A stretch of DNA of 64,000 nt, taken from positions 1-64,000 of the forward strand of contig JAJDEV010000115.1 of NCBI GenBank assembly GCA_029259605.1, in the 5' to 3' direction. Origin of the DNA: Planctomycetota bacterium. Lineage in GTDB: Bacteria > Planctomycetota > UBA1135 > GCA-002686595. The notes below the pieces were generated by a model that did not search any database, had not been told where the DNA came from, and saw only the letters and a program-made list of their open reading frames with translations. Below, piece after piece: positions 33,821-55,392 of this stretch. The position numbers and the translations under genes are program-made. How positions within the stretch are numbered: the first letter of the stretch is position 1; every line of letters starts with the position of its first letter.

Positions 33821-33897
33821 GCGCCCGTAGCTCAGCAGGATAGAGCACCGGTTTCCTAAACCGGGGGTCGTGGGTTCGAATCCCGCCGGGCGTACCA
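33821..33897 (+). tRNA. tRNA-Arg (anticodon CCT)
   Basis: The 77-base cloverleaf folds fully. The acceptor GCGCCCG pairs with CGGGCGT (first pair G-T). The D-arm is GCTC...GAGC, the anticodon stem CCGGT/ACCGG carries loop TTCCTAA, and the T-arm is GTGGG TTCGAAT CCCGC. CCA is encoded at 33895-33897. The anticodon CCT reads AGG. tRNA 3' ends are classic integration sites. Related T-arm/3'-end sequences recur downstream at 45240, 49442 and 50189 in the same orientation. Confidence 0.97.
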
Positions 33898-33925: not shown

Positions 33926-33974
33926 GGAACGCGCAAAGGGACGAACGTGGTTTGTTCGAACCCTAAAAAGGAAG

Positions 33975-33986
33975 TCATTCGAATGA
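33975..33986. promoter_or_regulatory. 12-bp perfect palindrome across the start codon of the DUF499 gene
   Basis: TCATTCGAATGA reads the same on both strands and contains the ATG (33983) of the DUF499 gene. A second palindrome with the same TTCGAA core, GTTCGAAC, lies about 20 bases upstream. This could be an operator for autoregulation or simply a site for the methylase of the operon. The ribosome-binding sequence AAGGAAG lies between the two. Confidence 0.4.
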
Positions 33987-37066: not shown

Positions 37067-37638
37067 GCCCCCAAGGACAGTCCGTTGATTTCGGCGCGCC
37101 CGAGAAGTTCGGGGCGCACCTCTTCCGGGTCGAAATCCCCGCGGCCCGAACGGCATCGGTCGTGATCGTGGAGGACTACGGTTTCCGCGGGAACGAGGCT
37201 GGGATTCCCCGGGACGAGGAGCGAGCCATCCTCGATCGGCGAGTCTGGTCGAAGATCTCGGACACGGCGCGGCGCGAGTTCAACGCTCGACTGAAGGCCG
37301 CGAAGATCCCGGCCGGCCGCTGGCACTCGGGCACGAACTTGGTTGAGCGTCTGCTGGGCAAGGAGCTCTGCGTGCTGACTTGGGCCGCGGAGCCGGCGAC
37401 CGACGATCAGCTTCCGGTCGTGTGCAGCAAGTGGACGGCGCTCCGCCCGGAAGAGCGCTGGTGGCTCTTCTCGATGACTGTCGCAGAGGCCGGACTACCG
37501 GACGACAAGGAACGCGGCTGGCGGCGCGCCCTCTACCTGGCGTTCGCCGATGGGGAGAAGCCGGCCGCCAACCGCAAACGCCGTCGTCCCACGGAGCACG
37601 ACCTCTTCGACCTACCGCTCGTCGAGGAGCCCCGATGA
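37063..37638 (+). CDS. DUF3780 protein of the Hma-like operon
   Basis: The 191-aa protein matches the DUF3780 family by its size, its position and its segments FGAPEKFGAHLFRVEIP and RWHSGTNLVERLLGKELCVL. The latter half contains KWTALRPEERWWLFSMT, the family's strongest block. No enzymatic motif is visible; a structural or adaptor role is likely. It overlaps both neighbours by four bases (ATGA junctions at 37063 and 37635), which implies balanced co-expression. Confidence 0.85.
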   Translation: MSPQGQSVDFGAPEKFGAHLFRVEIPAARTASVVIVEDYGFRGNEAGIPRDEERAILDRRVWSKISDTARREFNARLKAAKIPAGRWHSGTNLVERLLGKELCVLTWAAEPATDDQLPVVCSKWTALRPEERWWLFSMTVAEAGLPDDKERGWRRALYLAFADGEKPAANRKRRRPTEHDLFDLPLVEEPR

Positions 37639-40600: not shown

Positions 40601-40664
40601 CCCCGGCGAGGCCAGCTCATCCCGGGTCCTCTGCGAGCTGCTCCGGGCGCAGCGCCTGGGCTAG
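37635..40664 (+). CDS. DUF1156 DNA methyltransferase of the Hma-like operon
   Basis: The 1009-aa protein has an SAM-binding motif I in ADTFCGSGQIPFEAARLG near residue 222 and the catalytic motif TDPPYGDAVKYEEI near 620, typical of amino-methyltransferases acting on adenine N6 or cytosine N4. Between them is a long insert with a putative zinc-ribbon (CLEARCPQTGWM). The N-terminal 150 residues include the DUF1156 segment KACILGCLLPATDD. It probably modifies host DNA, or cooperates with the helicase to tell self from non-self. The start overlaps the DUF3780 stop; the helicase gene begins one base after its stop. Confidence 0.9.
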   Translation: MTAGVEPFSLKDAPALIERLLPVQKLSAEAYKEQMAVHGKTLTALGSYWKGRKPLILNKACILGCLLPATDDAARDLQVFEMLMGMDDLSFVPRWKRQLRPKEILGMVSLARISDYFVATPAKVLPQSSPVDWEDPAFEKVKVAWRDDLSSSQRRTVEAQALPEGSYRERVDQARRPEEVLETVHEHIWDEVNAHLGTSASTMNELVEQLGIMRFGHRPRVADTFCGSGQIPFEAARLGCDVYASDLSPVACMLTWGAIHIVGGSEEERAVLVRAQRELVERVQREIDALGVETDGDGWRAKVFLYCLEARCPQTGWMVPLLPTLVVSKGYRVVAELVPDVSKKRYDVAIRSEVSDNALKVAEVGTVRSDGRGQDPYLVHAIEGTEYRTKISTLRGDYRRDDRTNANRLRLWEKGDFRPRPNDIYQERLYCIEWMRPKSERGPEFAHLRGDDYEFRTVTPDDRDRERTVETFVGDHLAEWQHHGWVPGMRIEPGAKTDEPIRTRGWTHWHHLFNPRQLLVAGLVNQFSDAKLKFGLTQVLNNNCRSSRWHPGGGGGGQTVGVFDNQALNTLLNYGCRGSEYAASFLLQSYRSFSLDADLKVEINACPAESIAIEADLFVTDPPYGDAVKYEEILEFFIAWLRRNQPPEFADWTWDSRRALAIKGEDEGFRRGMVAAYKRMAECMPDNGLQVVMFTHQSGSIWADMANIVWAAGLQVTAAWYVVTETSSALREGSYVKGTVLLVLRKRVGEPKSTRDELAWDIQDEVKKQVDSLAGLNQEARGLYRDENVFEDADIQMAGYAAALRILTRYATIDGRDMTSEASRPRVRGETTFVDELIAFAVDTANQCLVPQGLPRSHWNKLSSAERFYLKMIDMEARGAKTLDNYQNFAKAFKVGDFRAFMADERANQARLKSAVELGRSEMSEGSEFHQSTLRAVLYGIMELEKNLDGNEVVAHLMHNVPNYYGDQTQRDRAIEIADYLAKRLEEIRPGEASSSRVLCELLRAQRLG

Positions 40665-40665
40665 A

Positions 40666-43377
40666 ATGGGCGATCTGCGACGCTTCTCCTCCCGCCGCCA
40701 GCGGCTGGACCACGCCTTCCTGAACGAGAAGCTCAAGGGCGCTCGCTCCTACCGGCGGATCGCCGGCTACTTCCGCAGCTCCATCTTCGAGCTCGTCGGC
40801 GAGGAGATCGCCGGCATTCCGAAGGTGCAGGTCATCTGCAACAGCGAGCTCGACGCGAAGGACGTTGTCATCTCGAAGCACGCGCGCGAAACCGCGCTCA
40901 AGGAGCGCTGGAACGAAGCGCCCTCCGAGGTTGAGGCGTTGTTGCATCGCGAGCGATATCTACGGCTGTACGAGCTCCTGAGCAGCGGCCGCCTCGAGAT
41001 CCGCGTCGTTCCCAAGGACAGGGTCTTCATCCACGGCAAGGCGGGTGTCGTCGAGGCCGCGGACGGCTCGAAGACCTGCTTTCTCGGATCGATCAACGAG
41101 ACGCGGAGCGCCTTCGCGCACAACTACGAGATCCTCTGGGAGGACCCGTCGGCCGAAGGGGTCGATTGGGTCGAGGAGGAGTTCCAGGCCCTCTGGGACG
41201 ATCCGCACGCCCACCCGCTTCCCGACGCGATCATCGAGGAGGTCCGCCGCGTCGCCGAGCGCGTGGAGATCCGGTTTGAGGAGGCGGCGACGGAGGAGAT
41301 GCCGGCCGCTGCGCTGGCGGAAGCGCCGATCTATCGCGGGGGCGAGCAGCTCCAGCCCTGGCAACGCTCCTTCGTCACGATCTTCCTGCAACACCGGGAG
41401 ACTTACGGCAAGGCCCGTCTCCTGCTGGCGGACGAGGTCGGGGTCGGCAAGACCTTGTCCATGGCGGCGAGCGCGATGATCTCGGTGCTACTCGGGGATG
41501 GGCCGGTGCTGATCCTGTGCCCGTCTACGCTGACCTTGCAGTGGCAGGTCGAGCTGGTCGACAAGCTCGGCATCCCGAGCGCGGTGTGGTCCTCCGCGAA
41601 GAAGCTCTGGCTGGACGCCGGCGGTCACGAGATCCGCACGCGCGGCCCCGAGGACGTGGCGCGCTGCCCCTCGCAAGTCGCGATCGTCTCAACGGGTCTG
41701 ATCTTCCACGACTCGGAAGAGCGGAAGCACCTGCTGACGAGGAAGTACGGGACGGTGGTTCTCGACGAGGCGCACCGGGCGCGGATGCGCGGCGGGCTCG
41801 GGAAGCGGAACGACGAGCCCAACAACTTGCTGGACTTCATGCTGAAGGTCGGCGGTCGAACTCGGCACCTGATCCTGGGCACCGCAACTCCGATCCAGAC
41901 CGAGGTCCGCGAGTTGTGGGACCTGCTACGTGTGCTCAACGGGGGCGTGGACTTCGTTCTCGGGCGGGAGTACTTCGGGCAGTGGGTGAACTGGGAGGTA
42001 GCGCTGCCCGTCGTTAAGGGCGAGCATGTGCCGACGGAGGACCGCGAGGCTTGGGAGTGGCTGCGCAATCCGCTTCCCCCGGGAGTCGAGCACGCGCTAT
42101 TCGCGAGCCTGCGACTTCAGCTCGGCATCGCCGACCACGTGTTCTTCACGGACAAGGGCTTCGGCTCGTTGGGGTACCTGGAGAAGGAGTCCATCAGCCA
42201 GACGCTGGAGCCTGGGTTCTTCCGCGAGCACAATCCGGTGGCGCGCCACACGGTGCTTCGCCGTCGCAAGACCCTCGAGGATGCGGGCCTTCTGGAGCGT
42301 GTCGGAGTCGAGGTTCATCCCGACCCCGATGCACCTGCTGGAGCCTACGGGCCGACTAGTTTCGCCGGCCTGGGGTTGGTGACGAACCACCCGTTCGATC
42401 TCGCCTACCAAGCAGCGGAAGCCTTCACGGCTGCGCTCCAACGGCGGACGAAGGCGGCGGGCTTTATGAAGACGCTGCTCCTACAGCGGATCTGCTCCAG
42501 CTTCGCGTCGGGGCGCTCGACCGCCGCGAAGATGCTCCAGCGAGAGACCTTGGACGAGGAAGAGCCGAACAAGGCAGCGGACGCTCTACTGAGCTCTCTC
42601 ACCGAAGTTGAAGCGCGGCACCTGCAAACGATCATTGACGAGCTCGGACGACCGGAGGCCCGCGATCCGAAGACGGCAGCCGTTCGCTTCTTTCTCACGG
42701 AGCACCGCACCGAGGGCAAGACCTGGCTGGAGCACGGGTGCATCATCTTCAGCCAGTACTACGACACCGTGCGATCTCTGGCTGCCGAGTTGGCGCGCAT
42801 CCTCGACGGAGAGCCGGTCGCGATCTACGCGGGCGCCGGCAAGAGCGGGCTCTATAGGGACGGTGACTTCGCTTCGGTCGAGCGCGACGAGATCAAGGCG
42901 GCCGTGAAGCGAAGAGAGGTGCGGCTGCTCGTGGCGACCGACGCGGCGTGCGAGGGCCTCAACCTCCAGACGCTCGGCACGCTCATCAACGTGGACCTGC
43001 CCTGGAACCCGTCCCGGCTGGAGCAGCGCCTCGGCCGCATCAAGCGGTTCGGTCAGGCGAGGCAGACGGTGGACATGCTGAACCTCGTCTACCACGACAC
43101 GCAGGACGAGCAGGTCTACGCGGTCCTTTCCCGACGCATGAAGAACCGCTACGACATCTTCGGCAGCCTTCCCGATACGATCGAGGACGACTGGATCGAG
43201 GACATCGAGACGCTGGAGGAGACGATGGACCAGTACATACACCTCCGCCGGAAGGCGAAGGACGTGTTCGAGATCCGCTACGAGCGCAAGATCGATCCGG
43301 ACGAGGATCGCTGGGAGCTCTGTTCCCGGGTACTGGCGCGGCGAGACATCGTGGACAGGCTCTCAGCCCCGTGGTAG
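40666..43377 (+). CDS. PLD-domain SNF2/DEAD helicase of the Hma-like operon
   Basis: The 903-aa protein starts with a phospholipase-D-like domain (residues 1-170) with HGKAGVV followed by GSINETRSAF, the H-x-K and G-S-x-N half of the HKD motif. A superfamily-2 helicase follows: Walker A ADEVGVGKTLSMA near 265, VVLDEAHRARM near 366, TATPIQTE near 405, and the C-terminal VATDAACEGLNLQ plus QRLGRIKRFGQ near 750-790. It would translocate on foreign DNA and may cleave it with the PLD domain. It is the last gene of the operon; a 128-base gap separates it from the DUF262 gene. Confidence 0.9.
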   Translation: MGDLRRFSSRRQRLDHAFLNEKLKGARSYRRIAGYFRSSIFELVGEEIAGIPKVQVICNSELDAKDVVISKHARETALKERWNEAPSEVEALLHRERYLRLYELLSSGRLEIRVVPKDRVFIHGKAGVVEAADGSKTCFLGSINETRSAFAHNYEILWEDPSAEGVDWVEEEFQALWDDPHAHPLPDAIIEEVRRVAERVEIRFEEAATEEMPAAALAEAPIYRGGEQLQPWQRSFVTIFLQHRETYGKARLLLADEVGVGKTLSMAASAMISVLLGDGPVLILCPSTLTLQWQVELVDKLGIPSAVWSSAKKLWLDAGGHEIRTRGPEDVARCPSQVAIVSTGLIFHDSEERKHLLTRKYGTVVLDEAHRARMRGGLGKRNDEPNNLLDFMLKVGGRTRHLILGTATPIQTEVRELWDLLRVLNGGVDFVLGREYFGQWVNWEVALPVVKGEHVPTEDREAWEWLRNPLPPGVEHALFASLRLQLGIADHVFFTDKGFGSLGYLEKESISQTLEPGFFREHNPVARHTVLRRRKTLEDAGLLERVGVEVHPDPDAPAGAYGPTSFAGLGLVTNHPFDLAYQAAEAFTAALQRRTKAAGFMKTLLLQRICSSFASGRSTAAKMLQRETLDEEEPNKAADALLSSLTEVEARHLQTIIDELGRPEARDPKTAAVRFFLTEHRTEGKTWLEHGCIIFSQYYDTVRSLAAELARILDGEPVAIYAGAGKSGLYRDGDFASVERDEIKAAVKRREVRLLVATDAACEGLNLQTLGTLINVDLPWNPSRLEQRLGRIKRFGQARQTVDMLNLVYHDTQDEQVYAVLSRRMKNRYDIFGSLPDTIEDDWIEDIETLEETMDQYIHLRRKAKDVFEIRYERKIDPDEDRWELCSRVLARRDIVDRLSAPW

Positions 43378-43505
43378 CGGAGTTGGACCAGACCATCCGA
43401 TCGTGCGCTTGTCGTGGGCGAAGACATTCCTATCAGCCAACACGAATCTGAGGCATAGTAGTTCAGCGAAGCGCCGCTATCAGGTGTGTCGCAGCAGGAG
43501 ATCAC

Positions 43506-44513
43506 ATGGAACGGGTTGACTACGAGTCACTAATTATCCAGGACATCCTCGCCACGCACGAACGGCGAGAGCTCGACATCAATCCCTGGTACCAGCGCCG
43601 GGCGGTTTGGACGAAGCCCCAGAAGGCGTATCTCATCAATACGGTCTTTGAGAGGAAGCCTGTTCCTTCCATTTACGTCAGGCACGCCATTGACCTGGAC
43701 TCAGAGAAGAGCGTCAAAGAGGTCGTTGACGGCCAGCAGCGAATACGATGCGTGCTGGAGTACCGAGCTGGCAAATTCGCGGCGCGACATCCCGAGCACC
43801 CGAGACCGGTCAAGTACGATCAGCTGACCAAGCCTCAACGCATGAGCTTCTTGCAGACGGCCCTATCGGTCGGCTACCTGGTGGGCGCATCGGACAAGGA
43901 TGTCATCGAAATCTTTGCCAGGATTAACACGGTCTCCAAGACACTTAACCCGCAAGAAAAGCGCAACGCACAGTTCAGCGGAGCCTTCAAGCAGTTTTGC
44001 CTTGAAGAAGCGGTGGAGCGGTTGCCGTTCTGGCGCAACAACGGGATATTCAGCGACAATGACATCTCGCGCATGGTCGAAGTCCAGTTTGTGTCAGATC
44101 TAGTGATGAACCTCTTCGATGGCCTGCAGGACTTTTCATCGCAGCGACTGACAAAGTACTACGCCGCGAACGAAGATGAGTTTGAGGCAGAGGAAGACGC
44201 TCGCTGTCGACTCGATGCTCTGTTTAGTCAGCTGCTTTTGCTTCATGAAGGCCGACTGAAGGGGACGGTGTTCGCGCGTCCGCAAGTACTCTTCAGTCTT
44301 CTGGTCGTCATAGACGGGCTTCCGCGGCGTCCATCTATCGGTCTCGTTGAGCGATGCGTGGACGATCTTGACGCGCGCGTCGAGTCTGTGCGAAGTGGCG
44401 ACAACCTCAGCGCGCTATCGACAGATGTATACGAGTCGTTCACGACTGGCAACATGCACAGGATTCGCTTTCGAAGACTTCGCGACGAGTCCATTCGGGG
44501 CTACTTCGGCTGA
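43506..44513 (+). CDS. DUF262 protein (ParB/GmrS-like domain only)
   Basis: The 335-aa protein contains the DUF262 signature DGQQRIRCVLEY near residue 80, preceded by PWYQRRAVW (an N-P-x-Y-Q-R-R-like strand). GmrSD-type restriction enzymes combine DUF262 with a C-terminal DUF1524 HNH nuclease; here the protein ends without DUF1524. DUF262 binds or hydrolyses NTPs and recognises modified DNA in characterised members. GCAGGAG lies 6 bases before the ATG. The next gene starts 3 bases after its stop and encodes a HEPN-motif protein, so the effector is probably that partner. Codons are visibly less GC-rich than those of the upstream operon. Confidence 0.85.
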   Translation: MERVDYESLIIQDILATHERRELDINPWYQRRAVWTKPQKAYLINTVFERKPVPSIYVRHAIDLDSEKSVKEVVDGQQRIRCVLEYRAGKFAARHPEHPRPVKYDQLTKPQRMSFLQTALSVGYLVGASDKDVIEIFARINTVSKTLNPQEKRNAQFSGAFKQFCLEEAVERLPFWRNNGIFSDNDISRMVEVQFVSDLVMNLFDGLQDFSSQRLTKYYAANEDEFEAEEDARCRLDALFSQLLLLHEGRLKGTVFARPQVLFSLLVVIDGLPRRPSIGLVERCVDDLDARVESVRSGDNLSALSTDVYESFTTGNMHRIRFRRLRDESIRGYFG

Positions 44514-44516
44514 GTC

Positions 44517-45128
44517 GTGCCTGCTCCGAGCTTGGGGACGACCTGGACGACGTTTCAATCAGAAACGCGCCGTCTGCAGCTTCTGCTGCCCTCTCTTGTG
44601 CAGTTGAGCCCGGGGCACCGGAAGCTAGTCGCAGAGATCACTCTGATTCGTCTCTTCTTCATGGTTGAGAACGCGGTGGCCGCGGCCGCGAAGAAGGCGT
44701 TGTGCGGAGCGCCATACCTGGATGGAACTACCCCAAGGCGTCTGGTGACGCCTCGCTCGCTTGTTGCTGCGGAAGCGGCCATGAAGTCGCATGGCCGAGC
44801 GCGGGCAAGGACGCTTTCGTGGACTCAGTCGAAGGAGATACGAGAGAACATCGCGCACACTCTAGACGGCGGCGATCCGTTCTTCGGAACGGTGATCCGA
44901 TATGGGACTCTGCTGACGGAGATACGGTTTGTGAGGAATCAAGCAGCGCACCACAACAGTGGTACGCGCGCTAGCTTTCGCAAGGTTCTCAAACAGTACT
45001 ACGGAGGAGTGCGGAAGGGTATCACTCCAGGGCTGCTACTCCTGACGCTTGCCCACGGAAAGCCCTGTCTGCTGGAGAGATACATCATCTCCTGCCGCGT
45101 CTTCTTGAAGGAACTGGTGCGAGCCTAA
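44517..45128 (+). CDS. HEPN-motif protein (MAE_28990-like), putative RNase effector
   Basis: The 203-aa helical protein starts at a GTG 3 bases after the DUF262 stop. It contains RNQAAH (R-x4-H) near residue 144, the active-site motif of HEPN ribonucleases, in the context EIRFVRNQAAHHN. Small HEPN-like proteins of the MAE_28990/MAE_18760 kind are known neighbours of DUF262 genes. It should cut RNA, perhaps tRNA, when DUF262 senses infection; this pairing and its mechanism are inference. Lower GC and different codon use set it apart from the neighbouring genes, suggesting recent transfer. Confidence 0.72.
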   Translation: MPAPSLGTTWTTFQSETRRLQLLLPSLVQLSPGHRKLVAEITLIRLFFMVENAVAAAAKKALCGAPYLDGTTPRRLVTPRSLVAAEAAMKSHGRARARTLSWTQSKEIRENIAHTLDGGDPFFGTVIRYGTLLTEIRFVRNQAAHHNSGTRASFRKVLKQYYGGVRKGITPGLLLLTLAHGKPCLLERYIISCRVFLKELVRA

Positions 45129-45239
45129 GCTGGCGCGTTGACGAAGCCAGTGACGGCCTCTCGTGACCCGTGTCATATGCCCATACGAACGAGAACGACG
45201 GTCCGTTCCGAGTCCCGCTGAGCCCCTTCTAGACGGGGC

Positions 45240-45256
45240 GTCGTGGATTCGACTCA
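45240..45256 (+). repeat. tRNA T-arm-like repeat, copy C
   Basis: GTCGTGGATTCGACTCA matches the T-arm of tRNA-Arg (33867-33882) at the GTCGTGG and TTCGA blocks and lies in the same orientation. It overlaps the stop codon of the helicase-3'-end relic. It may be a degenerate attachment site. A hairpin (GCCCC/GGGGC) lies just upstream at about 45222-45240. Confidence 0.45.
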
Positions 45257-45360
45257 CGCTACCGCCGCCGCGAACGACGCGAACAGGTCGCCCGAGAGCG
45301 CATGCCGCACGCGCCAAGTCTCCGCCATCGGCCGCTCCGACCGATGCTCCACATACGTCG
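45254..45360 (-). pseudogene. Relic of the 3' end of the DUF3427 helicase gene, copy C
   Basis: About 107 bases encode the last ~35 residues of the DUF3427 helicase (ATYVEHR...HALSGDLFASFAAAVA then TGA). They are aligned without gaps to 52291-52397 but with many substitutions, about 80 % identity by eye. Upstream the similarity stops and the adjacent AbiEi-type gene begins 40 bases further on. It is older or more diverged than copy B at 49456. The 125 bases before it (45129-45253) show no gene. Confidence 0.7.
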
Positions 45361-45399
45361 CCGGCGAAGAGCGCCAGATCGTCGTCGGAGTAGCTCGTC

Positions 45400-46494
45400 T
45401 CACGCATTGCGCGGTACGAGGTAGTTCTCGTAGAGCTTCGTCGCCACGCCGGCGACCCGTTCGTCGGGAATGGTCAGACACTCGGCCCAGACCAGGAGCG
45501 GATGGGCGAGCGGGACGGGCTGACGGGGAAGCCGATAGTCGTCGCCCAGGCCGTAGCGCGCGAGCAGCGTGATCGGCCCCTCCTCCGCCGGCACGAGCTT
45601 CAGGGCCTTGGCAACCTTGCGCTGCTGCGCCGGCGGCGTGTGGATCGTCGCGCGGTCCGTTCGCAGGAAGCGAGTGAGTCGTCCGGCGGCGCGCTCTCCG
45701 CCGAGGAGGCATCCGAGGTCTGGCTCGACCTCGGCCATTCTCCTCTCGAGGCCTCCCTCGTCCTCGAGTTTCAGCATCCGATAGCGCTGAGGGCGGAGCT
45801 TGGGACGCAGTGTGGTCGCCCAGCCGTCGGCAAAGCGTCGCAGTCCCTCGACCCGGTCGGCGACGCGCCACTGGCGCTTTCCAACGGGCTCGAGGATGCG
45901 GAGCTCGACGAGCTTGTTGCGGCCCTTGCCGATCAGGCCGAGCGCGATCCCCGCTCGGTCGGCGAGCTCTTGCTGGATCGCTTCGCCTGCATCGGGATCC
46001 CGAAGGAAGACGCCGAGGAGTTTGATCTCCGCGCCGGTGAGGTTCGGGCGCGCACGCAGTTCATGCGCGGCTGGGCGCCGCCCATCCACGAACAGGTACA
46101 GGCCCGGAGCGCGGAGATACGCGTTGCCCCCGAGGTCCACGTAGGCCACTTCCTTTTCGCGCAGAGCCTCGCCGACTGCCTTGGGGATGCGCCGGGCACA
46201 GACGAGCAGACGCTCGTCTCGAAGCTTCTTGGCGAGCTGAACGAGCGCGCCAACATGAGCGAGTCGGATCATCGGCTTGACCTCGACCGCGTAGGGAAGC
46301 CTGTGTTCTCCGAGGCGAGCCTCCACATACCCGTCCACTTGACGTTGCCGGTTCCCATCCGGTCGCTTCCGTTTCCACGTCAGTCCCCCGACTTCTTCCT
46401 GAACGGCTGCGAGGCAACGCTCGAGCAGTTCGAGCTCGTAGGCGTCTCGCTCGTTCCGACGCGGCTTCGCAGGGCCTTCGCGGTTCTCCTTCAT
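45400..46494 (-). CDS. Large AbiEi-family antitoxin, apparently orphan
   Basis: The 364-aa protein resembles the long form of AbiEi (type IV toxin-antitoxin regulator). The N-terminal part contains RQVDGYVEARLGEHRLPYAVEVKP, a nuclease-like strand pattern with E and K. The middle holds EIKLLGVFLRDPDAGEAIQQELADRAGIALGLIGKGRNKLVE, a winged helix. The C-terminal block PHPP-like HTPPAQQRKVAKALKLVPAEEGPITLL completes the family pattern. The usual toxin gene (AbiEii nucleotidyltransferase) should follow on the same strand, but downstream there is only the helicase relic at 45254. The antitoxin therefore seems orphaned by recombination. Confidence 0.75.
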   Translation of the reverse strand: MKENREGPAKPRRNERDAYELELLERCLAAVQEEVGGLTWKRKRPDGNRQRQVDGYVEARLGEHRLPYAVEVKPMIRLAHVGALVQLAKKLRDERLLVCARRIPKAVGEALREKEVAYVDLGGNAYLRAPGLYLFVDGRRPAAHELRARPNLTGAEIKLLGVFLRDPDAGEAIQQELADRAGIALGLIGKGRNKLVELRILEPVGKRQWRVADRVEGLRRFADGWATTLRPKLRPQRYRMLKLEDEGGLERRMAEVEPDLGCLLGGERAAGRLTRFLRTDRATIHTPPAQQRKVAKALKLVPAEEGPITLLARYGLGDDYRLPRQPVPLAHPLLVWAECLTIPDERVAGVATKLYENYLVPRNA

Positions 46495-46663
46495 CTGGGG
46501 TCCTCGAACGCTCCCTTGGACGGGCTTCGTGGGGCACGCATTTTCAGTCTAGTCGTCTTTTCATGAAACGTGAAACACGGCAAAATCCGAAAAATGGCTC
46601 CCCTGGATGGCCTGGGAAGGGCTGGAGCGCCCAATGGCGGCGCTGACCCACTCGCCGCACCCG

Positions 46664-46800
46664 GCTCTTCATCGCCGCGTTCGTATCGGCGTGCGCGGAC
46701 GACGGACACGGCGAGTTGGTCACGCAGGACGCGTTCGCCTGGTTGCGCGCGCACCCCACGAAGGACTCGCTGGTCGAGCTCTATCGCGCGCACGAACTGC
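46664..46800 (+). pseudogene. Unidentified coding fragment
   Basis: A run of about 45 codons with strongly GC-biased third positions reads in frame on the plus strand (AFVSACADDG, then QDAFAWLRAHPTKDSLVELY). It has no start and loses frame at about 46800. I do not recognise the family. It is one of the broken pieces filling 46495-47100 between the orphan antitoxin and the 749-aa gene. The rest of that stretch (46495-46663) appears to be the antitoxin's promoter region. Confidence 0.3.
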
Positions 46801-47104
46801 CCGACGCCCGGTGCATTCCAGCTCGGCGGCCTCGGGCTCGCGGCAGCGGGGCGAACTCCTGGGGTTCCACGCGTTGCGCTCGGCGCGACCCATCCGGACG
46901 CACGCTGGGCTGCTTCAAGGTCGAAGCGGTCGAACAGCGCAGCGTGCGGACCTCCGCCTCCACCTCCGCGGGGCCGTGGTCGTGCGTGTCGTCCCACGGC
47001 ACGAGCGCGAGGAGCGCCGGCGGGGCTGCGCCCGTCGCGTCCTCGATCGCGGCCGATCCGTCGTGCGCGCCCGAGTGCGGGGAGGCGTCCCGCGTCGCGC
47101 TCAT
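46780..47104 (-). pseudogene. Decayed gene overlapping the 749-aa gene stop
   Basis: An ATG at 47104 overlaps the stop of the 749-aa gene (ATGA), the usual sign of a coupled second gene. The frame reads about 58 codons (including LLALVPWDDTHDHGPAEVEAEV), and then coding character jumps to another frame (LFDRFDLEAAQRASGWV) near 46930 and fades near 46800. It looks like a frameshifted and truncated partner gene; its family is not recognised. Confidence 0.35.
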
Positions 47105-49350
47105 TCCGCGGGGGCGAGGCCGAGCTCCCGCAGGAGCTCCGCGCGCGGCACTTCGATCGGGCCGTAGGGCGAGCCGATCGGCGACATGGTGTTCACGAGC
47201 AGCGCGACGCGGCGGCGGCCGTCGGCGGTCTTGCACGCCTCGCGCGGCGTGAGGTCGCCGAGCGCCGGGACGCGCTCGTCGGGCCAGCGCAGGCAGCGCT
47301 CGCGCGCGAACTCCCTGAGGGACTCGAGGGCGTCCGGCGTCGGAGGCTCGGGCGGCGGGCCGGGCAGGCGATCGTCGAGCGGCACCGCCGCGGAGTCGGT
47401 CGCGTGGCTCGTCGCGCGCTCGAAGCGCACACCCGGCACGGCGTCGAGCCATTCGCGCGCACGCTCGAGACGACGGCGCGCGTTCACTTCGACGACGAGC
47501 CGGTCGTCCAGGAGCTCGAGGCGGGCGAGCACGGTTCGCTCGCCCGTATCGGACGGCGCGGACAACCAGGTCCAATCTCCCTCGACGTCGTCGTGGTCGA
47601 CGTCCTCGCGCTTCGCGAGCGCGCGCTCCAGCGCCTTCGGCTCCGCGACGCGGAACGTGGCCGTGCTCGGCTCGAAGGGGTCGCCGTCGGTGTTCGTCAG
47701 CACGGGCGGGCGCCGCCGGCGGTCCCGGGCCCAGGACCAGAGTTGCCCCAAGAGGTGCGCGTCCGAACGCAGGCCTTCGGGCGAGAGCTCGGCGCCCGCG
47801 CGTTCCAGCGCCTGCAACGCGTCGCGGACGTCGTGCCCCGCGAGCGGCGGACCGGCGATCGCCGAAAAGGTCCAGCCTCCGTCGTGCGGGACGTGGAGCA
47901 GGCGCAGGGGAAGGTAGAGGCCTTCGCGAGCGCCGCTCGACAGAGCGCGATCGTGCAGCGTGTACCGCCGGCCGGAGAGCACGTCCGTCACCTCGATCGC
48001 GACGCCGGGCTCGCACGCGTCGACACGGTAGATGGAGACCTCCGCGTCCCGGCGCGCCTCGAGCAGCACGCGCTCGTCCGGATCGAGGCGCTTGCGCGTG
48101 AGGCGTCGCTCGACGCGCGTCTTCGAGCGCCGCGTGGCGCGGTAGTCGGCGGCGAACCACTCGATGTAGGCACCGATGGGCGAGACGTCGCCGAGCTCCT
48201 CGAGGAACGCCTGCAGCTCCTGGTCGCTGCCGAAGAAGCGCGCGCTCGTCCGCGCCGAGTCGGCGTCGAGCGTCTCCTCGCTCAGGGACTTCGCGACGCG
48301 CCGGTCCGCGTCCTTCCAGCGCGCGAGGGGGCTCGATGCGACCTCGTCCTCCGCCTCCTCGACCGCCATCTCTCCGATCGCGGCGGCGATGTCCCGCGCT
48401 TGCGAGGAGTCGGGGTCGAGCGAGCTCTTGACGTCGAGCGCGGCCAGCCCGGAGGCCAGGGCGGCGTGCAGGCGCCCGTCGGCGATCACGACTTCGCGCG
48501 GCAGGCCGAACTCGCGGAAGGCGCCCGTGAGCATCTCGCTCACGGGGGCCAGGTCGTCGCCGAGCGTGATCGTGTTCGCGATCACCAGGCCGCGACGTTC
48601 CTCGGCCACGAACACGCCGAAGACGGCGCGCTCGTCGCCCTCGATCCCGCCGGGCATGGAAACGAGCGCGAGGCACCAGCGCTGGTCGCTGCGCGGCAGG
48701 TCGCCGAGGTCGCGCGGGAGCGCCAGGAGCGGCGGAAGGTCGTGGAGGAGCACGTCCTTCGGCCAGGGGATGCGGCGCGCGGTCACGCTCGGCCGCTTCG
48801 GCGCGCCGCCGATCTCGAGTTCGAGCACTTCGCTCGGCGGCTCGCCCGAAGCGAGGATCGGGATCGGGTGCAGTTCGCCCGCGTCGTGCGCGGCCAGCAC
48901 GCCGCGCAGCGCCCACAGCACCGTGCGCAGCTCCGGCCGCCGCGCCGGTCGCGCGAGTTCGAAGGCCGGCTTGGCGAACACGACCGGCATCGCACGCTCG
49001 CGACTCGGGCTGAGTCCCGCGGCGAGCACCAGCCGCCGAAACTCGTCGGCGATCTCCGCCCAGGCAGCGAACGAAACGGAGAGGTAGTTGCGCTCGTGCT
49101 CCGCGCTCTCCAGCTCGTAGCCGAGCGTGAGTTGCGCCATGTCCGCGAGGGCACCCGCGCCGGTGAACATGGCGAGTCCGAACTCCTCGCCCGCCTGCCC
49201 CATGACACTGACGGCCAGCGGGAACTCCTCGTCCGGAACGCGCAGCGAGAAGAACGCGTCGCCCGGGACCTCGCGCCACAGCCGGCGACGGTAGAACTCG
49301 AGCGCGGTCTCGACGACGTCGCGGGCGAGGCGATCGCGGCGTTCGGGCAT
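47101..49350 (-). CDS. 749-aa protein of unknown function (DUF7309/DUF6930-like)
   Basis: The protein is soluble, with no signal peptide or membrane helix. Residues about 235-345 (FGVFVAEERRGLVIANTI, PREVVIADGRLHAALASGL) resemble the DUF7309/DUF6930 domains that occur in SEC-C-containing proteins. A helical acidic region covers 345-440. The C-terminus holds ALGDLTPREACKTADGRRRV, a motif I associate with the end of those same proteins and with toxin-binding domains of Xre/ParS-type antitoxins. No catalytic motif is evident and the SEC-C zinc motif itself is missing. It lies between two helicase-3'-end relics, inside the mosaic, so a defence role is plausible but unproven. Confidence 0.55.
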   Translation of the reverse strand: MPERRDRLARDVVETALEFYRRRLWREVPGDAFFSLRVPDEEFPLAVSVMGQAGEEFGLAMFTGAGALADMAQLTLGYELESAEHERNYLSVSFAAWAEIADEFRRLVLAAGLSPSRERAMPVVFAKPAFELARPARRPELRTVLWALRGVLAAHDAGELHPIPILASGEPPSEVLELEIGGAPKRPSVTARRIPWPKDVLLHDLPPLLALPRDLGDLPRSDQRWCLALVSMPGGIEGDERAVFGVFVAEERRGLVIANTITLGDDLAPVSEMLTGAFREFGLPREVVIADGRLHAALASGLAALDVKSSLDPDSSQARDIAAAIGEMAVEEAEDEVASSPLARWKDADRRVAKSLSEETLDADSARTSARFFGSDQELQAFLEELGDVSPIGAYIEWFAADYRATRRSKTRVERRLTRKRLDPDERVLLEARRDAEVSIYRVDACEPGVAIEVTDVLSGRRYTLHDRALSSGAREGLYLPLRLLHVPHDGGWTFSAIAGPPLAGHDVRDALQALERAGAELSPEGLRSDAHLLGQLWSWARDRRRRPPVLTNTDGDPFEPSTATFRVAEPKALERALAKREDVDHDDVEGDWTWLSAPSDTGERTVLARLELLDDRLVVEVNARRRLERAREWLDAVPGVRFERATSHATDSAAVPLDDRLPGPPPEPPTPDALESLREFARERCLRWPDERVPALGDLTPREACKTADGRRRVALLVNTMSPIGSPYGPIEVPRAELLRELGLAPAE

Positions 49351-49441
49351 GGGGGAGAGTCTAACTTCGATCGCTCGTGCCCGGCGAGGACCTGGCGCCC
49401 CGCGTCGAGGGCCGGTCGCCCCGTCGTGCTTGCAATCCGGA

Positions 49442-49458
49442 GTCGTGGGTTCGACTCA
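49442..49458 (+). repeat. tRNA T-arm-like repeat, copy B
   Basis: GTCGTGGGTTCGA (13 bases, 49442-49454) is identical to tRNA-Arg 33867-33879 and runs in the same direction. It continues CTCA where the tRNA has ATCC. It abuts the TGA of the helicase relic. The preceding 20 bases (CTTGCAATCCGGA) also look like an anticodon-arm remainder, but no complete cloverleaf can be drawn. Confidence 0.5.
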
Positions 49459-49987
49459 CGCGACCGCCGCCGCGAAGGACGCGTACAGATCCCCCGAAAG
49501 CGCGTGCTCCAACCGCCAAGTCACCGCCATCGGCCGCTCCCCCCGATGCTCCACATACCTCGCCGGCCCAAGGAACCAGAACGCCCGCTCATCCGTCCGC
49601 AACCGCGCGAACAGCATGACGCTGCTCCCCATCGCCACGTGCTTCTGATACCGCACCCCCGTCTCCGAATCCGCACGCGTTGCCGACTGGCTCTCCCAGT
49701 GGATCAGCTCGCGGCTGATGGCGTAGTCGCGGTAGCGCGTCGTCGGTGAGAACTGGCCGCTCGTCTTGTCGAGCGTGAAGGCGAACAGGTCCGCCGCGGC
49801 TTCCTCCGCCCAATACACGCCCGATTGCCACGGCGCGACCTTGGCGCCGCTGCCGACGCCGAAGCCGGCCAGGATCTCGAGGCGCGTGTAGCGACCGTGG
49901 ACTTGGAGCGGGACGCCCTGTTGCTCGGCGAGCGCGGTGTGGACGTGGTCGGTGCGAGTGGCGAGCACGTCGAGGAGGTCGAGCAGC
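49456..49987 (-). pseudogene. 532-bp copy of the DUF3427 helicase 3' end, copy B
   Basis: The segment aligns without any gap to 52291-52822, with roughly fifteen substitutions (about 97 % identity by eye), seven of them in the 35 bases next to the stop codon. It encodes the last ~177 residues of the helicase in an uninterrupted frame from LLDLLDVLATRTDHV to the TGA. It has no start or helicase motifs. The similarity ends abruptly at 49987, where a different relic begins. A recent duplication, or gene conversion with the full copy 2.8 kb away, explains the high identity. Confidence 0.9.
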
Positions 49988-50129
49988 AGATCGGGGGGGC
50001 GGTGTGGCTCAGCAGGACGCGAAAGCGGAAGTGGGCGCGCTTCGGCTCCGCTTGCGCCGCCCTGGGGCCTTCCGCTTCCTTCTTCTGGCAGCAGCGCTTG
50101 AACTTGCGCGCGCGTCCACAGAGACAAGG
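49988..50129 (-). pseudogene. SEC-C / pRiA4b ORF-3-like fragment fused to the helicase relic
   Basis: In the minus-strand frame starting at 50129 the sequence encodes PCLCGRARKFKRCC, a SEC-C zinc motif (C-x-C-x8-C-C), and then HFRFRVLLSHTAPPI, which resembles the start of the pRiA4b ORF-3 domain (usually ending PPIWRR). The fragment is cut exactly where the helicase copy begins (49987) and is not in frame with it. A stop codon lies directly upstream, so nothing is expressed as a normal gene. The remaining 200 bases to 50346 hold the tRNA-like repeat at 50189 and no gene. Confidence 0.65.
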
Positions 50130-50188
50130 TTAGTTGCGACCGGTGGTTCGAGCGCGTTGCGTCGGCGCAGCATAGCGGACCGGCGATC

Positions 50189-50215
50189 GCGGATTCGAAT
50201 CCGGCGGGGCGCGCC
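50189..50215 (+). repeat. tRNA 3'-end-like repeat
   Basis: This sequence aligns with the 3' end of tRNA-Arg (33871-33897) at about 20 of 27 positions, including the T-loop core GATTCGAATCC and the acceptor-like GGGGCG. No tRNA body precedes it. It lies in the same orientation as the tRNA and as copies B and C, about 160 bases before the membrane-protein/HEPN cassette. It is possibly a degenerate attachment site. Confidence 0.45.
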
Positions 50216-50346
50216 GGCGATGGCGGGAGCCGAACGCACGAGCTCCCCCCTCCTCCTCGCACCATTGGAAAGAGCCCGCGCAAGCGCTTCAGGACGTCCT
50301 CCCGTGGCTCTGCCGGGGATTATCACCCTGATGCAGGGAAGCCTAG

Positions 50347-51135
50347 TTGCCAAGACCGGGGAAGGCTAGGCTGCCGTACGTGGAAGAACTCCATGACGGG
50401 CGGTCCGGGTGGCGGTCGTTGGCGAGTCTGCGCCGCGTGTGGCGTTGGTTCAGTGACACAATGACCATCGTGGGACTTGGCGGAGTGTCAGACGACGTGG
50501 GTGTCTGGCAAACTTGGAACCCGTTTCCCGGCGGAGTGTTCGCTTGGCTCCTGATCGTTGTCGGGGTCGCTCTCGCCAGGACGGGCCTCGACTACTGGAG
50601 CAATCTCTTCCGTCGCCTCAGAGCGCGCTTGACGCAGGCTTCATTCCGGCTAGAAGCACCGGTCTTCTGTTCTCAGTTCACGCCCCATACGAGGGATCTG
50701 GACGAGACCCCCGCCCGCATCGGGTTGACATTCATAGTCGTCAACCTCTCGACCGAACCCGTAGCCTTCGACGATCGAGTGCGCGGCTACTTCGTCGTCA
50801 ACCGAACTGAGTCGATCCACGGGCTTTCCCTAAAGGGTCCGAGAGAACTCGCGCCGCTTGGGCATTCGACGATTACCCTGTGCGCGCAGATCGACGAGGG
50901 GTTGGCCGGTGCGATTCGATCAGCAAGAGACAGCGAGCCGAAGAATCGCTTGGAATTCACAGAGATGGCCTCGATATCGCTTCAGCATGTCGAAGTCAGC
51001 GTGAAGTCCAAGGAAGGCAGGGGTGTGCTCGCCCTACCCCCGGAGCTCCGCATTCGGGACGGCTGGTGGGCTCAAGTCGTATGCTCAGCTGACATCCGCG
51101 CGGCAATGGGCGGAGCCTCAACCGAGATTCGGTAG
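50347..51135 (+). CDS. Single-pass membrane protein of unknown function, partner of a HEPN gene
   Basis: The 262-aa protein has one transmembrane helix at about residues 62-82 (GVFAWLLIVVGVALARTG) followed by a beta-rich domain to the end (IGLTFIVVNLSTEPVAF, HSTITLCAQIDEG). I do not recognise a family. The TTG at 50347 has AGGGAAG 5 bases upstream; GTG at 50380 is an alternative. Ten bases separate it from the HEPN-motif gene, and both have lower GC than their surroundings. The pair lies inside the helicase-end array, so I suspect a defence cassette with a membrane-linked sensor. Confidence 0.6.
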   Translation: MPRPGKARLPYVEELHDGRSGWRSLASLRRVWRWFSDTMTIVGLGGVSDDVGVWQTWNPFPGGVFAWLLIVVGVALARTGLDYWSNLFRRLRARLTQASFRLEAPVFCSQFTPHTRDLDETPARIGLTFIVVNLSTEPVAFDDRVRGYFVVNRTESIHGLSLKGPRELAPLGHSTITLCAQIDEGLAGAIRSARDSEPKNRLEFTEMASISLQHVEVSVKSKEGRGVLALPPELRIRDGWWAQVVCSADIRAAMGGASTEIR

Positions 51136-51144
51136 GAGCGATTC

Positions 51145-51864
51145 GTGAAGAGGGACGGAGACGATTTCCAGCGCGATATCCTGGCCTCGGGGACTGGAGG
51201 CAAGCGCAGCTACCTCTCTCAGCAGCATCTTTGGTCGGCTGAGCTGCTTGCTCGGAAGGCCCAGGAGTTGGAAGACGGAGCCACGCAGCCCGATCCGCCC
51301 TTGAAGCCCAACCGGGATCACCGGGCATTTGTGATCGGGTCCGTGCTGAGTTCGGTTGCTTACCTTGAAGCTTCGATCAATGAGCTCTTTGGTGATGCCG
51401 TGGATGGCGGCGATGGTCAGCGCCAGCTTGATACGGATACTGTTGCGCGTTTGGCCCGAGTGTGGGGGATAGGCAACGAACGCGCCCGCATGTTGGACAA
51501 GTACGAGCTGGCACTTTTCGCGGCTGGGAAGCCTCCTCTGGACCGAGGCAATGCAACGTACGGCAACGCTAAGGGCGTCGTAGCACTCCGCAACGCACTC
51601 GTTCACTATTCTCCTGAATGGCACTACTTCGGCGAAGCAGGGCCGCAGCCGCCGCAGGAGCGACATCGGCTGGAGAAGACCTTGGGAGGGAAGTTCACTC
51701 CGAATTGCCTCGCCGATTCGCTCTTGCCGTTCTTCCCCGATAAGTGCCTTGGTGGCGGTTGTGCACGGTGGTCGATCGAATCCGGCAAGGCATTCTATGA
51801 AGACTTTCGCCAGAAGATCGGTCTTCCACCGGAGCGCGCTTCGGAGCTTCTCGAATGGCAGTAG
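51145..51864 (+). CDS. HEPN-motif protein, putative RNase
   Basis: The 239-aa helical protein starts at a GTG with GGAG 6 bases upstream. It carries ALRNALVHYSPEW near residue 148, in which R-x4-H (RNALVH) is the HEPN RNase motif. An N-terminal helix, VIGSVLSSVAYLEASINELF near residue 70, is also typical of HEPN folds. The protein is unrelated in sequence to the other HEPN-motif protein at 44517. It probably cuts RNA in response to a signal from its membrane-protein partner; there is no direct evidence for the substrate. C-terminal cysteines (PDKCLGGGCARW) are a local oddity. Confidence 0.68.
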   Translation: MKRDGDDFQRDILASGTGGKRSYLSQQHLWSAELLARKAQELEDGATQPDPPLKPNRDHRAFVIGSVLSSVAYLEASINELFGDAVDGGDGQRQLDTDTVARLARVWGIGNERARMLDKYELALFAAGKPPLDRGNATYGNAKGVVALRNALVHYSPEWHYFGEAGPQPPQERHRLEKTLGGKFTPNCLADSLLPFFPDKCLGGGCARWSIESGKAFYEDFRQKIGLPPERASELLEWQ

Positions 51865-51869
51865 AAGTC

Positions 51870-52021
51870 CTACCCGACCAGCGTCTCGTAGGTCATCACG
51901 TCGGAGGACATGAGCACGACGAGCGTGTCCCGGAAGAGGTACGGTTCACCCTCGACCTGGAACGGCCGGCGCACGCCGCGCGTGACGACGGCCAGGTCGT
52001 GCGCGGGATCGCCGCGCTCAG
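51870..52021 (-). pseudogene. C-terminal fragment of an unidentified gene
   Basis: The minus-strand frame reads about 50 coding-like residues (AHDLAVVTRGVRRPFQVE, then FRDTLVVLMSSDVMTYETL) ending in a stop at 51870, with no start. The pattern resembles the tail of an exported beta-rich protein but I cannot assign it. It is convergent with the HEPN gene, whose stop lies 6 bases away. Confidence 0.35.
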
Positions 52022-52024
52022 CTA

Positions 52025-52264
52025 GGAGCGACCGACGAGGAGAATGGACACGCGCTTCGCGCCGGTTTTCGGTTCCGAGCAAACGAGAGACTGGAACTGA
52101 ACGGCGGATTCGGTGTCGACGACATCGACGATTCCGAGTCTGGCTTCGATGGCGGGGCGGTTGTTGCATTGAGCGAAGTGATAAGCGGAACGATCGGCGT
52201 GAGCGTGTCGGACGACGCAACAGCGCTCACCTTCGGACTCCGGATCTACTTCGGATCGGACTAG
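52025..52264 (+). pseudogene. C-terminal fragment of an outer-membrane beta-barrel gene
   Basis: About 79 codons read in one frame to TAG at 52262 (HALRAGFRFRANERLELNGG, then GTIGVSVSDDATALTFGLRIYF). Alternating polar and apolar residues and an aromatic end (IYFGSD) are typical of a beta-barrel terminus. No start or signal sequence remains. It is another relic wedged against the helicase 3' end, whose stop lies 27 bases further on. Confidence 0.5.
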
Positions 52265-52290
52265 GAGCCAAAGGGTTCCGTCGGTTCGGT

Positions 52291-55200
52291 TCACGCGACA
52301 GCTGCTGCGAACGACGCAAACAGGTCCCCCGAAAGCGCGTGCTCCAACCGCCAAGTCACCGCCATCGGCCGCTCCCCCCGATGCTCCACATACGTCGCCG
52401 GCCCAAGGAACCAGAACGCCCGCTCATCCGTCCGCAACCGCGCGAACAGCATCACACTGCTCCCCATCGCCACGTGCTTCTGATACCGCACCCCCGTCTC
52501 CGAATCCGCACGCGTTGCCGACTGGCTCTCCCAGTGGATCAGCTCGCGGCTGATCGCGTAGTCGCGGTAGCGCGTCGTCGGTGAGAACTGGCCGCTCGTC
52601 TTGTCGAGCGTGAAGGCGAACAGGTCCGCCGCGGCTTCCTCCGCCCAGTACACACCCGATTGCCACGGCGCGACCTTGGCGCCGCTGCCGACGCCGAAGC
52701 CGGCCAGGATCTCGAGGCGCGTGTAGCGACCGTGGACTTGGAGCGGGACGCCCGGTTGCTCGGCGAGCGCGGTGTGGACGTGGTCGGTTCGAGTGGCGAG
52801 CACGTCGAGGAGGTCGAGCAGCTCGGCTCGGACTTGGGGGTGCTGCCAGATCAAGCGCGCGCCGTCAGCGAGCGTCGTGTCCTTGCTGACCGCTTTGTTG
52901 GTGACCGATGCGACCAGCATGCGGAGGAGGCGCCGATCGTGCTCGGACATCGCGCTCGGGTCGGGCGCCTCGCGTTCGCGCAGGAACGCTCGGAACGCGT
53001 CGATGCGCACCTCGTCGTCGACGTGCAGCAAGCGACCGCACGCGCGCCGCAGCTGATCTTCGTGGGAACCCGCTGCCGCCACCGAGAGCCCCGCCTCCTC
53101 GCGCAGCTTCGTCCAACCGCGGTTGCCCTTGTAGACGTCCTCGAGCTCGAGGTCGCTCGCTCCCAAGAACGCGGCCAAGCTCACATCGCCGCCGTCCGCG
53201 CTCTGCGCGATGAGCCGCAGCTCCTCCGCCTTCGCCGCCCAACGACTCGGCACGGCGTCGCGGATGTTGTCGAGCACGATCTTGCTGGCGACCGGATCGA
53301 GCTCCATGTGGCAACCCGCCGGCAGGAACGGGAAGCCGCCTTCGATCTGATCGATCAACTCGTTGCGGCTGCCGCCGAGCAAGGCGCGCATGCGGCGGTC
53401 GAAGCGGAACTCCTTGCGGTGGTGGCCGACGAAGTCGAGCACGGTGCACGCGGTCTTGCCCTTGCTGCGCCGGAGTCCGCGGCCGAGCTGTTGCAGGAAG
53501 AGCGTCGCGCTGTCGGTCGGTCGCAGGAGGAGGAGCGTGTCGACGGTCGGGACGTCGATGCCTTCGTTGAAGAGGTCGACGGAGAAGACGACTTGGATCG
53601 TGCGATCGGCCAGGTCGCGTAGCGCGGCGCGGCGCTCGTCGGCCGGGCTGTCGCCCCACACCGCAACCGCGGCGACGCCCGCCTCTTGGAAGACGCGCGC
53701 CATGAAGCGGGCGTGGTCGACGCTCACGCAGAAGCCGAGGACGCGCATGCGCCCCGCGGCCTCGGCGTGGTCGATCAGGTGCTTGAGCACGAGCCGCGCC
53801 CAACTGTCGTTCGCGGTCAGCACGTTGGACAAGCCCTCGGTGTCGTACCCGCGCCCGCGTTTCCACGGCACCTCGCGCAGGTCCACGCCATCGTGGATGC
53901 CGTAATAGAGGAAGGGAGCGAGCCTCTGCTGATGGATCGCGTCCCACAGGCGCAGCTCGGCGGCGATGCGGTCGTCGAACCAGCCGAGGATGGGCAGGCC
54001 GTCGCTGCGCTCGGGTGTGGCGGTGAGGCCGAGCAGCTCGCACGGCTGCACGTGGTCGAGGAGCGCGCGGTAGGAAGGCGCGGCGGCGTGGTGGAACTCG
54101 TCGACGATGACGACGTCGAAGTGATCGGCGGGCAGGTCGGCCAGGTTCGCGGCGTTGAGGCTCTGGATCGAGGCGAAGACGTGCTCGAAGCGCGTGGGCT
54201 TGTGGCCGTCGACCCACAGCTCGCCGAAGGCGTGGTCGCGGATCGCGTGGCGGAAGGTCGCGCAGCTCTGCGACAGGATCTCCTTGCGATGCGCGACGAA
54301 CAGGAGCCGCGCGCGGGGCAGCCGATCGCGCAGGCGCAAGTAGTCGAGCGCGGCCATGACCGTCTTGCCCGTGCCGGTGGCGGAGACGAGCAGGTTGCGG
54401 TGGTGTCCCTGCGAGCGCGAGAGCTCGATCTGTTCGAGCAGGCGCTCCTGGAACGGCTCGGCGCGCAGCTCGACCGGGCTGAGGTAGATCTGCGGCCCGC
54501 CGTCGTCGGTGCGCTTCGTGTTCTCGAGGAACTCCTCGGCGTCGTAGGGCACGAAGTCGCCGCCGTTCCAATAGCTCTCGAACACGGCCGCGACCTTCTC
54601 GATGACGTCGGGGTTGCGCGCGCCGGAGACACGGACGTTCCACTCGAGCCCGGTGACCTGGGCCGAGTGCGTGAGGTTCGACGAGCCGATGTACGCGGTC
54701 GAGAAGCCAGAGTCGCGGTGGAAGAGCCACGCCTTCGCGTGCAGGCGAGTGAGGCTCGTGTCGTAGGACACGCGGACGTCGGCACCCGCTGAGATCAATT
54801 CGTCGAGCGCGGCGGCTTCGGTCGAACCGGTGTACGTCGTGGTCAGGACGCGGACCGGGCGGCCGGCACCGCAATGCTTGCGGAGCGCTTTGCGCAAGGG
54901 ACCGATGCCGGTGCGTCGAATGAACGCCATGACGACGTCGATGCGATCCGCCGACTCGACTTCGGTGCGAATCTGGTGCCCGACACGGGGTTCGCCGGGG
55001 GAGTTCGTGAGGAGCGTGGTGTCTAGGAGGGGGATGTCAGGCGCCTTGATCGCTTCGGCTTCACCCTTGGGGTTGCGCGCTGCGACCGCCTGAAGCACCT
55101 CGGCCGACTCCCTCGGCGCTTCGTCGCCCGCGTTGGCGTTGGGAAGCGCCGCGTCGATCTGCTGAATCAAGTCACGCGCGAGCTCGATCCCCAGGGCGAC

Positions 55201-55392
55201 TCGCTGCTTGTCGTCCACCGACGCCAAACTCCGTCGCAGCTCCCGGCCGATGTGCAGCGCAATACGGTCCGCGGCCTCCGCCGAGCGGAGGGGGGTGCGG
55301 AGCGCAACGAGGTGTCGCGCGAGGTCTCGAAGCTCCGACTCGAGCGCTTCGGTGATCAGAACCTCGTGCAATCCGCGCTGCGGGGTCGACAT
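52291..55392 (-). CDS. PLD-DEAD/DEAH-DUF3427 helicase, complete copy
   Basis: The 1033-aa protein combines a PLD-like domain (about 130-280; HAKAWLF and GSSNLTHSA) with a superfamily-2 helicase (Walker A ATGTGKTVMAALDYLR near 345; VIVDEFHHAAAPS near 425; LLGLTATPERSDG; motif VI LQQLGRGLRRSKGK near 645) and a C-terminal DUF3427 domain (about 760-1033). This architecture is a recognised stand-alone defence-associated helicase that may degrade foreign DNA with the PLD domain. The ATG at 55392 begins MSTPQRGLHEVL. Its last 532 bases are duplicated at 49456 and its last ~107 at 45254. Confidence 0.92.
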   Translation of the reverse strand: MSTPQRGLHEVLITEALESELRDLARHLVALRTPLRSAEAADRIALHIGRELRRSLASVDDKQRVALGIELARDLIQQIDAALPNANAGDEAPRESAEVLQAVAARNPKGEAEAIKAPDIPLLDTTLLTNSPGEPRVGHQIRTEVESADRIDVVMAFIRRTGIGPLRKALRKHCGAGRPVRVLTTTYTGSTEAAALDELISAGADVRVSYDTSLTRLHAKAWLFHRDSGFSTAYIGSSNLTHSAQVTGLEWNVRVSGARNPDVIEKVAAVFESYWNGGDFVPYDAEEFLENTKRTDDGGPQIYLSPVELRAEPFQERLLEQIELSRSQGHHRNLLVSATGTGKTVMAALDYLRLRDRLPRARLLFVAHRKEILSQSCATFRHAIRDHAFGELWVDGHKPTRFEHVFASIQSLNAANLADLPADHFDVVIVDEFHHAAAPSYRALLDHVQPCELLGLTATPERSDGLPILGWFDDRIAAELRLWDAIHQQRLAPFLYYGIHDGVDLREVPWKRGRGYDTEGLSNVLTANDSWARLVLKHLIDHAEAAGRMRVLGFCVSVDHARFMARVFQEAGVAAVAVWGDSPADERRAALRDLADRTIQVVFSVDLFNEGIDVPTVDTLLLLRPTDSATLFLQQLGRGLRRSKGKTACTVLDFVGHHRKEFRFDRRMRALLGGSRNELIDQIEGGFPFLPAGCHMELDPVASKIVLDNIRDAVPSRWAAKAEELRLIAQSADGGDVSLAAFLGASDLELEDVYKGNRGWTKLREEAGLSVAAAGSHEDQLRRACGRLLHVDDEVRIDAFRAFLREREAPDPSAMSEHDRRLLRMLVASVTNKAVSKDTTLADGARLIWQHPQVRAELLDLLDVLATRTDHVHTALAEQPGVPLQVHGRYTRLEILAGFGVGSGAKVAPWQSGVYWAEEAAADLFAFTLDKTSGQFSPTTRYRDYAISRELIHWESQSATRADSETGVRYQKHVAMGSSVMLFARLRTDERAFWFLGPATYVEHRGERPMAVTWRLEHALSGDLFASFAAAVA

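Follow-up and report, generated by a model that had tools for sequence, protein, structure and literature searches.

In integron-like platforms, a tyrosine recombinase, IntI, lies near cargo that has no recombinase of its own, and attC sites are used. Prophage e14 integrates in the icd gene. Genomic islands of the Islander type are found at tRNA genes, where a restored target and a displaced fragment are left (PMC4383910), and the dusA islands integrate at the end of a protein gene, i.e. the 5' end of dusA (PMC4482086). The locus studied here lies in a window of 64,000 nucleotides from a planctomycete, the whole stretch of DNA that we analysed, and resembles each of these systems in part. It is an array with a tRNA boundary, tRNA-like internal junctions, stacked cargo and a content that varies between genera, as in Islander-type islands; unlike in these, what is repeated is chiefly a restriction-gene end, a search of the cargo detected no integrase, and the match to the tRNA is partial. 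The dusA islands and e14 are paralleled by two other genomes, L109 and L123, with insertions at one gene end, direct repeats and an intact gene that is kept; unlike for the dusA islands, the target is the 3' end of a defence gene, and the observed inserts carry no integrase. Finally, a tyrosine recombinase lies near recombinase-less cargo as in integron-like platforms, but this cargo spans several kb and the recombinase is a candidate identified by its match to PF00589. Read rightwards, the array consists of tRNA-Arg(CCT), cargo 1, junction and stub A, cargo 2, junction and stub B, cargo 3 and the intact gene, copy C:

33821..33897, plus strand: tRNA-Arg(CCT), intact, left boundary of the array (ARAGORN; Rfam, 68 bits)
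33947..45128, plus strand: cargo 1, with DUF499, DUF3780, DUF1156, PLD-helicase, DUF262 (GmrSD_N) and a 203-aa gene (Pfam; PADLOC DUF499)
45232..45259, plus strand: junction A, like the 3' half of tRNA-Arg(CCT) (22/28 to the tRNA), overlapping the stop codon of stub A
45254..45365, minus strand: stub A, the last ~111 nt of the copy C gene, more diverged
45400..49350, minus strand: cargo 2, an AbiEi_2 protein (364 aa; 45400-46494) and a 749-aa DUF7309/DUF6930 protein (47101-49350) (Pfam)
49434..49461, plus strand: junction B, like the 3' half of tRNA-Arg(CCT) (23/28 to the tRNA), overlapping the stop codon of stub B
49456..49987, minus strand: stub B, the last 531 nt of the copy C gene with the DUF3427 domain, open frame
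50178..50211, plus strand: another sequence like the 3' half of tRNA-Arg, between stub B and cargo 3 (82% over 33 nt, E=2e-4; 22/28)
50347..51864, plus strand: cargo 3, ORFs of 262 aa and 239 aa (no Pfam or PADLOC match)
52291..55392, minus strand: copy C, intact SauUSI-like type IV restriction gene (PLDc, SF2 helicase, DUF3427; 1033 aa)

Judged from its domains, the product of copy C is a SauUSI-like type IV restriction enzyme and is predicted to cleave 5-methylcytosine-modified DNA. The order of an N-terminal PLDc, a central helicase and a C-terminal DUF3427 domain (Pfam) agrees with the layout described for SauUSI (PMC3874153), PADLOC assigns the protein to mREase_IV (E=2e-260), and residues 127-663 are covered by a match to PDB 7clg (E=1.5e-74). 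To the right of copy C follow a 311-aa ORF and then a DUF2357/PDDEXK_7 protein and an EVE-domain protein (Pfam, PADLOC), which we infer to be McrC- and McrB-like, respectively.

A first-pass annotation of this DNA had claimed that the 3' end of the helicase gene is repeated without gaps and with about 15 substitutions at 49456-49987, that a shorter and more diverged copy lies at 45254-45360, that all three copies are on the minus strand, and that unrelated cassettes separate them. The alignment of the three regions that it proposed bears this out: the repeats are real and absent elsewhere in the genome. Positions 49444-49987 and 52279-52822 match over 544 bp without gaps at 96.7% identity (E=0), with 15 substitutions and no indel in the 531 coding nucleotides; stub B has an abrupt edge at codon ~858 of the restriction gene and carries DUF3427 (Pfam, E=6.5e-19). 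The region of stub A (45237-45381) is 83% identical to stub B over 145 nt, and its core (45242-45365) is 84.7% identical to copy C over 124 nt (E=1e-28), so that A runs slightly past 45360. Both stubs and copy C are co-oriented. A search of the whole genome gave no further copy of the gene end, the sole extra match being 30 nt long (E=9e-4). The intervening cassettes are indeed unrelated, an AbiEi_2 and a DUF7309/DUF6930 protein in one case and two ORFs of no family in the other; the labels "membrane protein" and "HEPN" given to the latter are not confirmed, as neither ORF (50347-51135 and 51145-51864) matches a family in Pfam or PADLOC. Just past the abrupt edge of stub B, at 50005-50020 (plus strand), there is an 11-nt exact match to the D-arm of tRNA-Arg (GCTCAGCAGGA), which may be due to chance.

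The stubs do not look like serial copies of copy C. Over 111 nt, stub A shares 86.5% identity with B and with C alike, and the next best genome reaches 75.7%; since A is equally near to B and C and much farther from the gene ends of other genomes, the three represent alleles from a single lineage. Of the changes that separate stub B from copy C, 12 are synonymous and 3 non-synonymous (p=1e-5, tested against neutrality); for stub A and copy C, the numbers are 9 and 6 (p=0.007). This mostly synonymous change indicates that the sequences were functional during most of their divergence; hence, the stubs would be the ends of once-functional alleles, or stub B would itself be under selection. The idea that each event leaves a copy of the end of the resident gene is thus not upheld, since A and B look like the ends of separate functional alleles. 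Moreover, the differences between B and C are unevenly spread: 7 fall in the terminal 45 nt and 8 in the other 486 (Fisher p=8e-5, with the cut chosen post hoc), and it is therefore probable that sequence close to the gene terminus was exchanged. A recent origin of B or gene conversion, as had been suggested, is possible for the upstream part, which is 98.4% identical to copy C, but not for the divergent last 45 nt.

About 18 bp beyond the stop codon are common to A and B and resemble the T-arm side of tRNA-Arg(CCT). The sequence GTCGTGGRTTCGACTCACG is found exactly only at these two junctions, the tRNA being next with two mismatches, and chance alone would give 0.10 matches to the shared pattern in the window when up to three mismatches are allowed. 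The tRNA-like repeats comprise 19-28 nt and reach 22-23 of 28 positions, against a background best of 19-20 for a 28-nt match, and they accompany stubs of unequal length. At junction C, the likeness to the tRNA does not exceed background and was rejected. With tRNA-Arg(CCT) directly beside the array and sequence resembling tRNA-Arg at junctions A and B, the earlier analogy to integrases that regenerate tRNA ends is apt. The Rfam search found no RNA besides the tRNA. A tyrosine recombinase gene (PF00589; 30473-31402, plus strand) lies 2.4 kb 5' of the tRNA. When the genome was searched with PF00589, the only match on the contig (30896-31267) lay on the other side of the tRNA, outside the array; no integrase was detected inside the cargo, in contrast to integrase-made islands, which encode their own. 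Just 5' of the tRNA, at 32844-33739 (plus strand), there are a 115-aa DNA-binding-like ORF, with a 74%-identical relative in genome G020, and a 183-aa nucleotidyltransferase-like ORF, possibly a toxin-antitoxin pair.

The same tRNA occurs with other defence cargo in G015 and G020, which belong to other genera of this family. In G015, tRNA-Arg is followed by QatABCD, a tRNA-Arg-like fragment and then the end of the restriction gene; in G001, a 25-nt tRNA-Arg end lies ~95 bp beyond the stop codon of the restriction gene, and in G020 an island with MzaC/MzaE follows the tRNA. Pieces of 45-48 nt from the 3' part of tRNA-Arg occur in G080, G091 and G093, and several genera have ordinary genes beside tRNA-Arg(CCT). 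Given these islands and displaced 3' pieces, tRNA-Arg(CCT) appears to be a hotspot of integration at which defence genes are frequent. A tyrosine recombinase is present on the 5' side of the tRNA in G000, G015 and G020 (67-71% identical), those of G015 and G020 being orthologues of the gene at 30473-31402; none appeared in the remaining upstream regions inspected, several of them short. A short copy of the restriction gene in G015 was considered as a further stub and rejected: the gene is complete but split at codon 858 by an element with IstA/IstB-like ORFs and 60-bp inverted ends, which we take to be of the IS21 type.

The clearest insertions come from the search for extra 3'-end copies with other cargo, which had also been proposed and which led to L109 and L123. 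In L109, an independent MAG, a 3.9-kb insert lies exactly at the gene end between 29-bp direct repeats; L101 and L102, whose genes are ~91-92% identical to that of L109, have the gene joined straight to the flank beyond the repeat of L109, i.e. an empty site. The insert encodes a DUF6288 protein and a protein of 370 aa that matches nothing in Pfam, and no known defence cargo was found in it. Since L103 has the 370-aa gene and no right-hand repeat, and L102 and L103 are rearranged farther on, not every event was clean. Past the gene end, L102 and L103 have ~450 bp of flank and then a DUF6288 gene; this flank is much longer in L101 and L109. In L123, an AbiE operon alone lies between 28-bp repeats of the gene end; the insert has no integrase, and an empty site was sought for it, but its flank is shared by no relative. 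We kept 80 of ~490 DUF3427 loci. Among the 73 with usable flanks, the last 30 nt of the gene and 6 downstream are repeated in two, L109 (29/36) and L123 (27/36); the best score in randomised flanks was 26, and 0 of 1460 reached the scores of these two loci. Such arrays are rare: in a pattern scan of 51 genomes, extra gene ends on the same contig were found, among the matches listed, in L109, L123 and the window genome only, and a scan of Myxococcota gave no further same-contig array. One Myxococcota MAG (L160, 9881-10531) has an orphan DUF3427 end whose frame is open; the remnant of an integrase and tRNA-Met lie close to it. A limited search of the open-access literature returned nothing on DUF3427 gene ends as insertion sites. 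With single insertions at the same gene end in L109 and L123, the end of the restriction gene appears to be a docking site for incoming cargo.

We favour, with about even confidence, the explanation that separately acquired cargo was stacked between tRNA-Arg(CCT) and the 3' end of the SauUSI-like gene, with site-specific recombination as the leading candidate agent. The gene terminus, made up of the FAAAVA codons, the stop codon and a short stretch past it, here beside tRNA-derived sequence, would be the recombination site. Incoming cargo would be joined at this terminus, the intact gene would keep or recover an undamaged terminus, and on the far side of the cargo an older or foreign gene end would stay behind as a stub. 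We infer that the process seen in L109 and L123 also made the window array, and that the agent would be a site-specific (tyrosine) recombinase acting in trans. Further points in favour are the tRNA-Arg-like junctions A and B, the same tRNA with other defence cargo in G015 and G020, and the displaced tRNA-Arg fragments past the gene in G001 and G015; junction C at background level, the L109 insert outside known defence cargo, and L103 with part of that cargo and no right-hand repeat count against it. The earlier proposal of insertion or recombination at the helicase 3' end is partly supported, namely by the insertions in L109 and L123; stubs of 111 and 531 nt instead of ~29 bp and the cargo without a detected integrase speak against it, and given these lengths the same crossover is not established for the window. 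It is possible, if doubtful, that homologous or homology-assisted recombination built the array: an incoming partial restriction gene of another strain with neighbouring cargo would recombine in the shared end, giving variable stubs with no dedicated integrase. The varying stub lengths, the descent of A, B and C from one lineage, the mostly synonymous divergence, the uneven differences between B and C and the cargo without a detected integrase all agree with this. However, homologous recombination alone leaves both the exact 28-29 bp terminus repeats in L109 and L123 and the likeness of junctions A and B to the tRNA unexplained. Judged from this one draft genome, recombination may have been site-specific, like that in L109 and L123, or homologous, as the variable stub length would suggest.

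It is unlikely that whole islands accreted in tandem at tRNA-Arg(CCT), each with a complete tRNA-proximal restriction gene, and that older copies decayed with only their ends at the attachment sites surviving. This would account for the tRNA-like junctions A and B, the displaced tRNA fragments within the family, the derivation of the stubs from functional alleles, and the position of the gene end beside tRNA fragments (G001, G015) or T-arms (L118, L137, L153), convergent in every case; yet A and B lack the part of the tRNA that forms the acceptor stem, cargo 1 has no gene end at its start, and no tRNA is present at the insertions in L109 and L123. We consider it rather improbable that the resident tyrosine recombinase 5' of tRNA-Arg(CCT) in three genera is a trans-acting, stationary platform for integrase-less defence cassettes, in which the 3' half of the tRNA and the terminus of the SauUSI-like gene would be the attachment sites and each acquisition would leave one stub. 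Tandem duplication with later deletion, the case that the first-pass annotation had named as refuting its reading, or repeat misassembly, which a draft MAG of 305 contigs would allow, is highly improbable: the downstream DNA is duplicated for ~18 bp at most, the cargo differs between copies, the change is mostly synonymous and unevenly spread, and a comparable pattern is seen independently in L109 and L123.

So far, the gain and loss of systems in defence islands has mostly been inferred from gene content. If cargo was indeed stacked at the restriction gene end, such a stub-leaving docking gene would provide a record of acquisition and a way to locate cargo boundaries, and the 749-aa DUF7309 protein and the 262/239-aa pair, which are without an assigned function, would become candidate defence genes. 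Where the 749-aa protein has relatives in other genera, neither the gene end nor a tRNA-Arg fragment was present in the flanks examined. A search of viral contigs gave no relative, and searches of phages and plasmids gave only relatives below 60% identity. Both ends of the contig repeat an internal segment (window 1-139, and contig C19 73001-73139 and 84534-84595; 97-100%), and the contig thus breaks at a repeat. Right of the window, contig C19 carries a family of short repeats (65226-65458, 68124-68356, 80588-80761 and 81704-81777; 75-92% identical), and positions 25656-25766 and 62728-62847 form an inverted repeat pair (81% over 120 nt).
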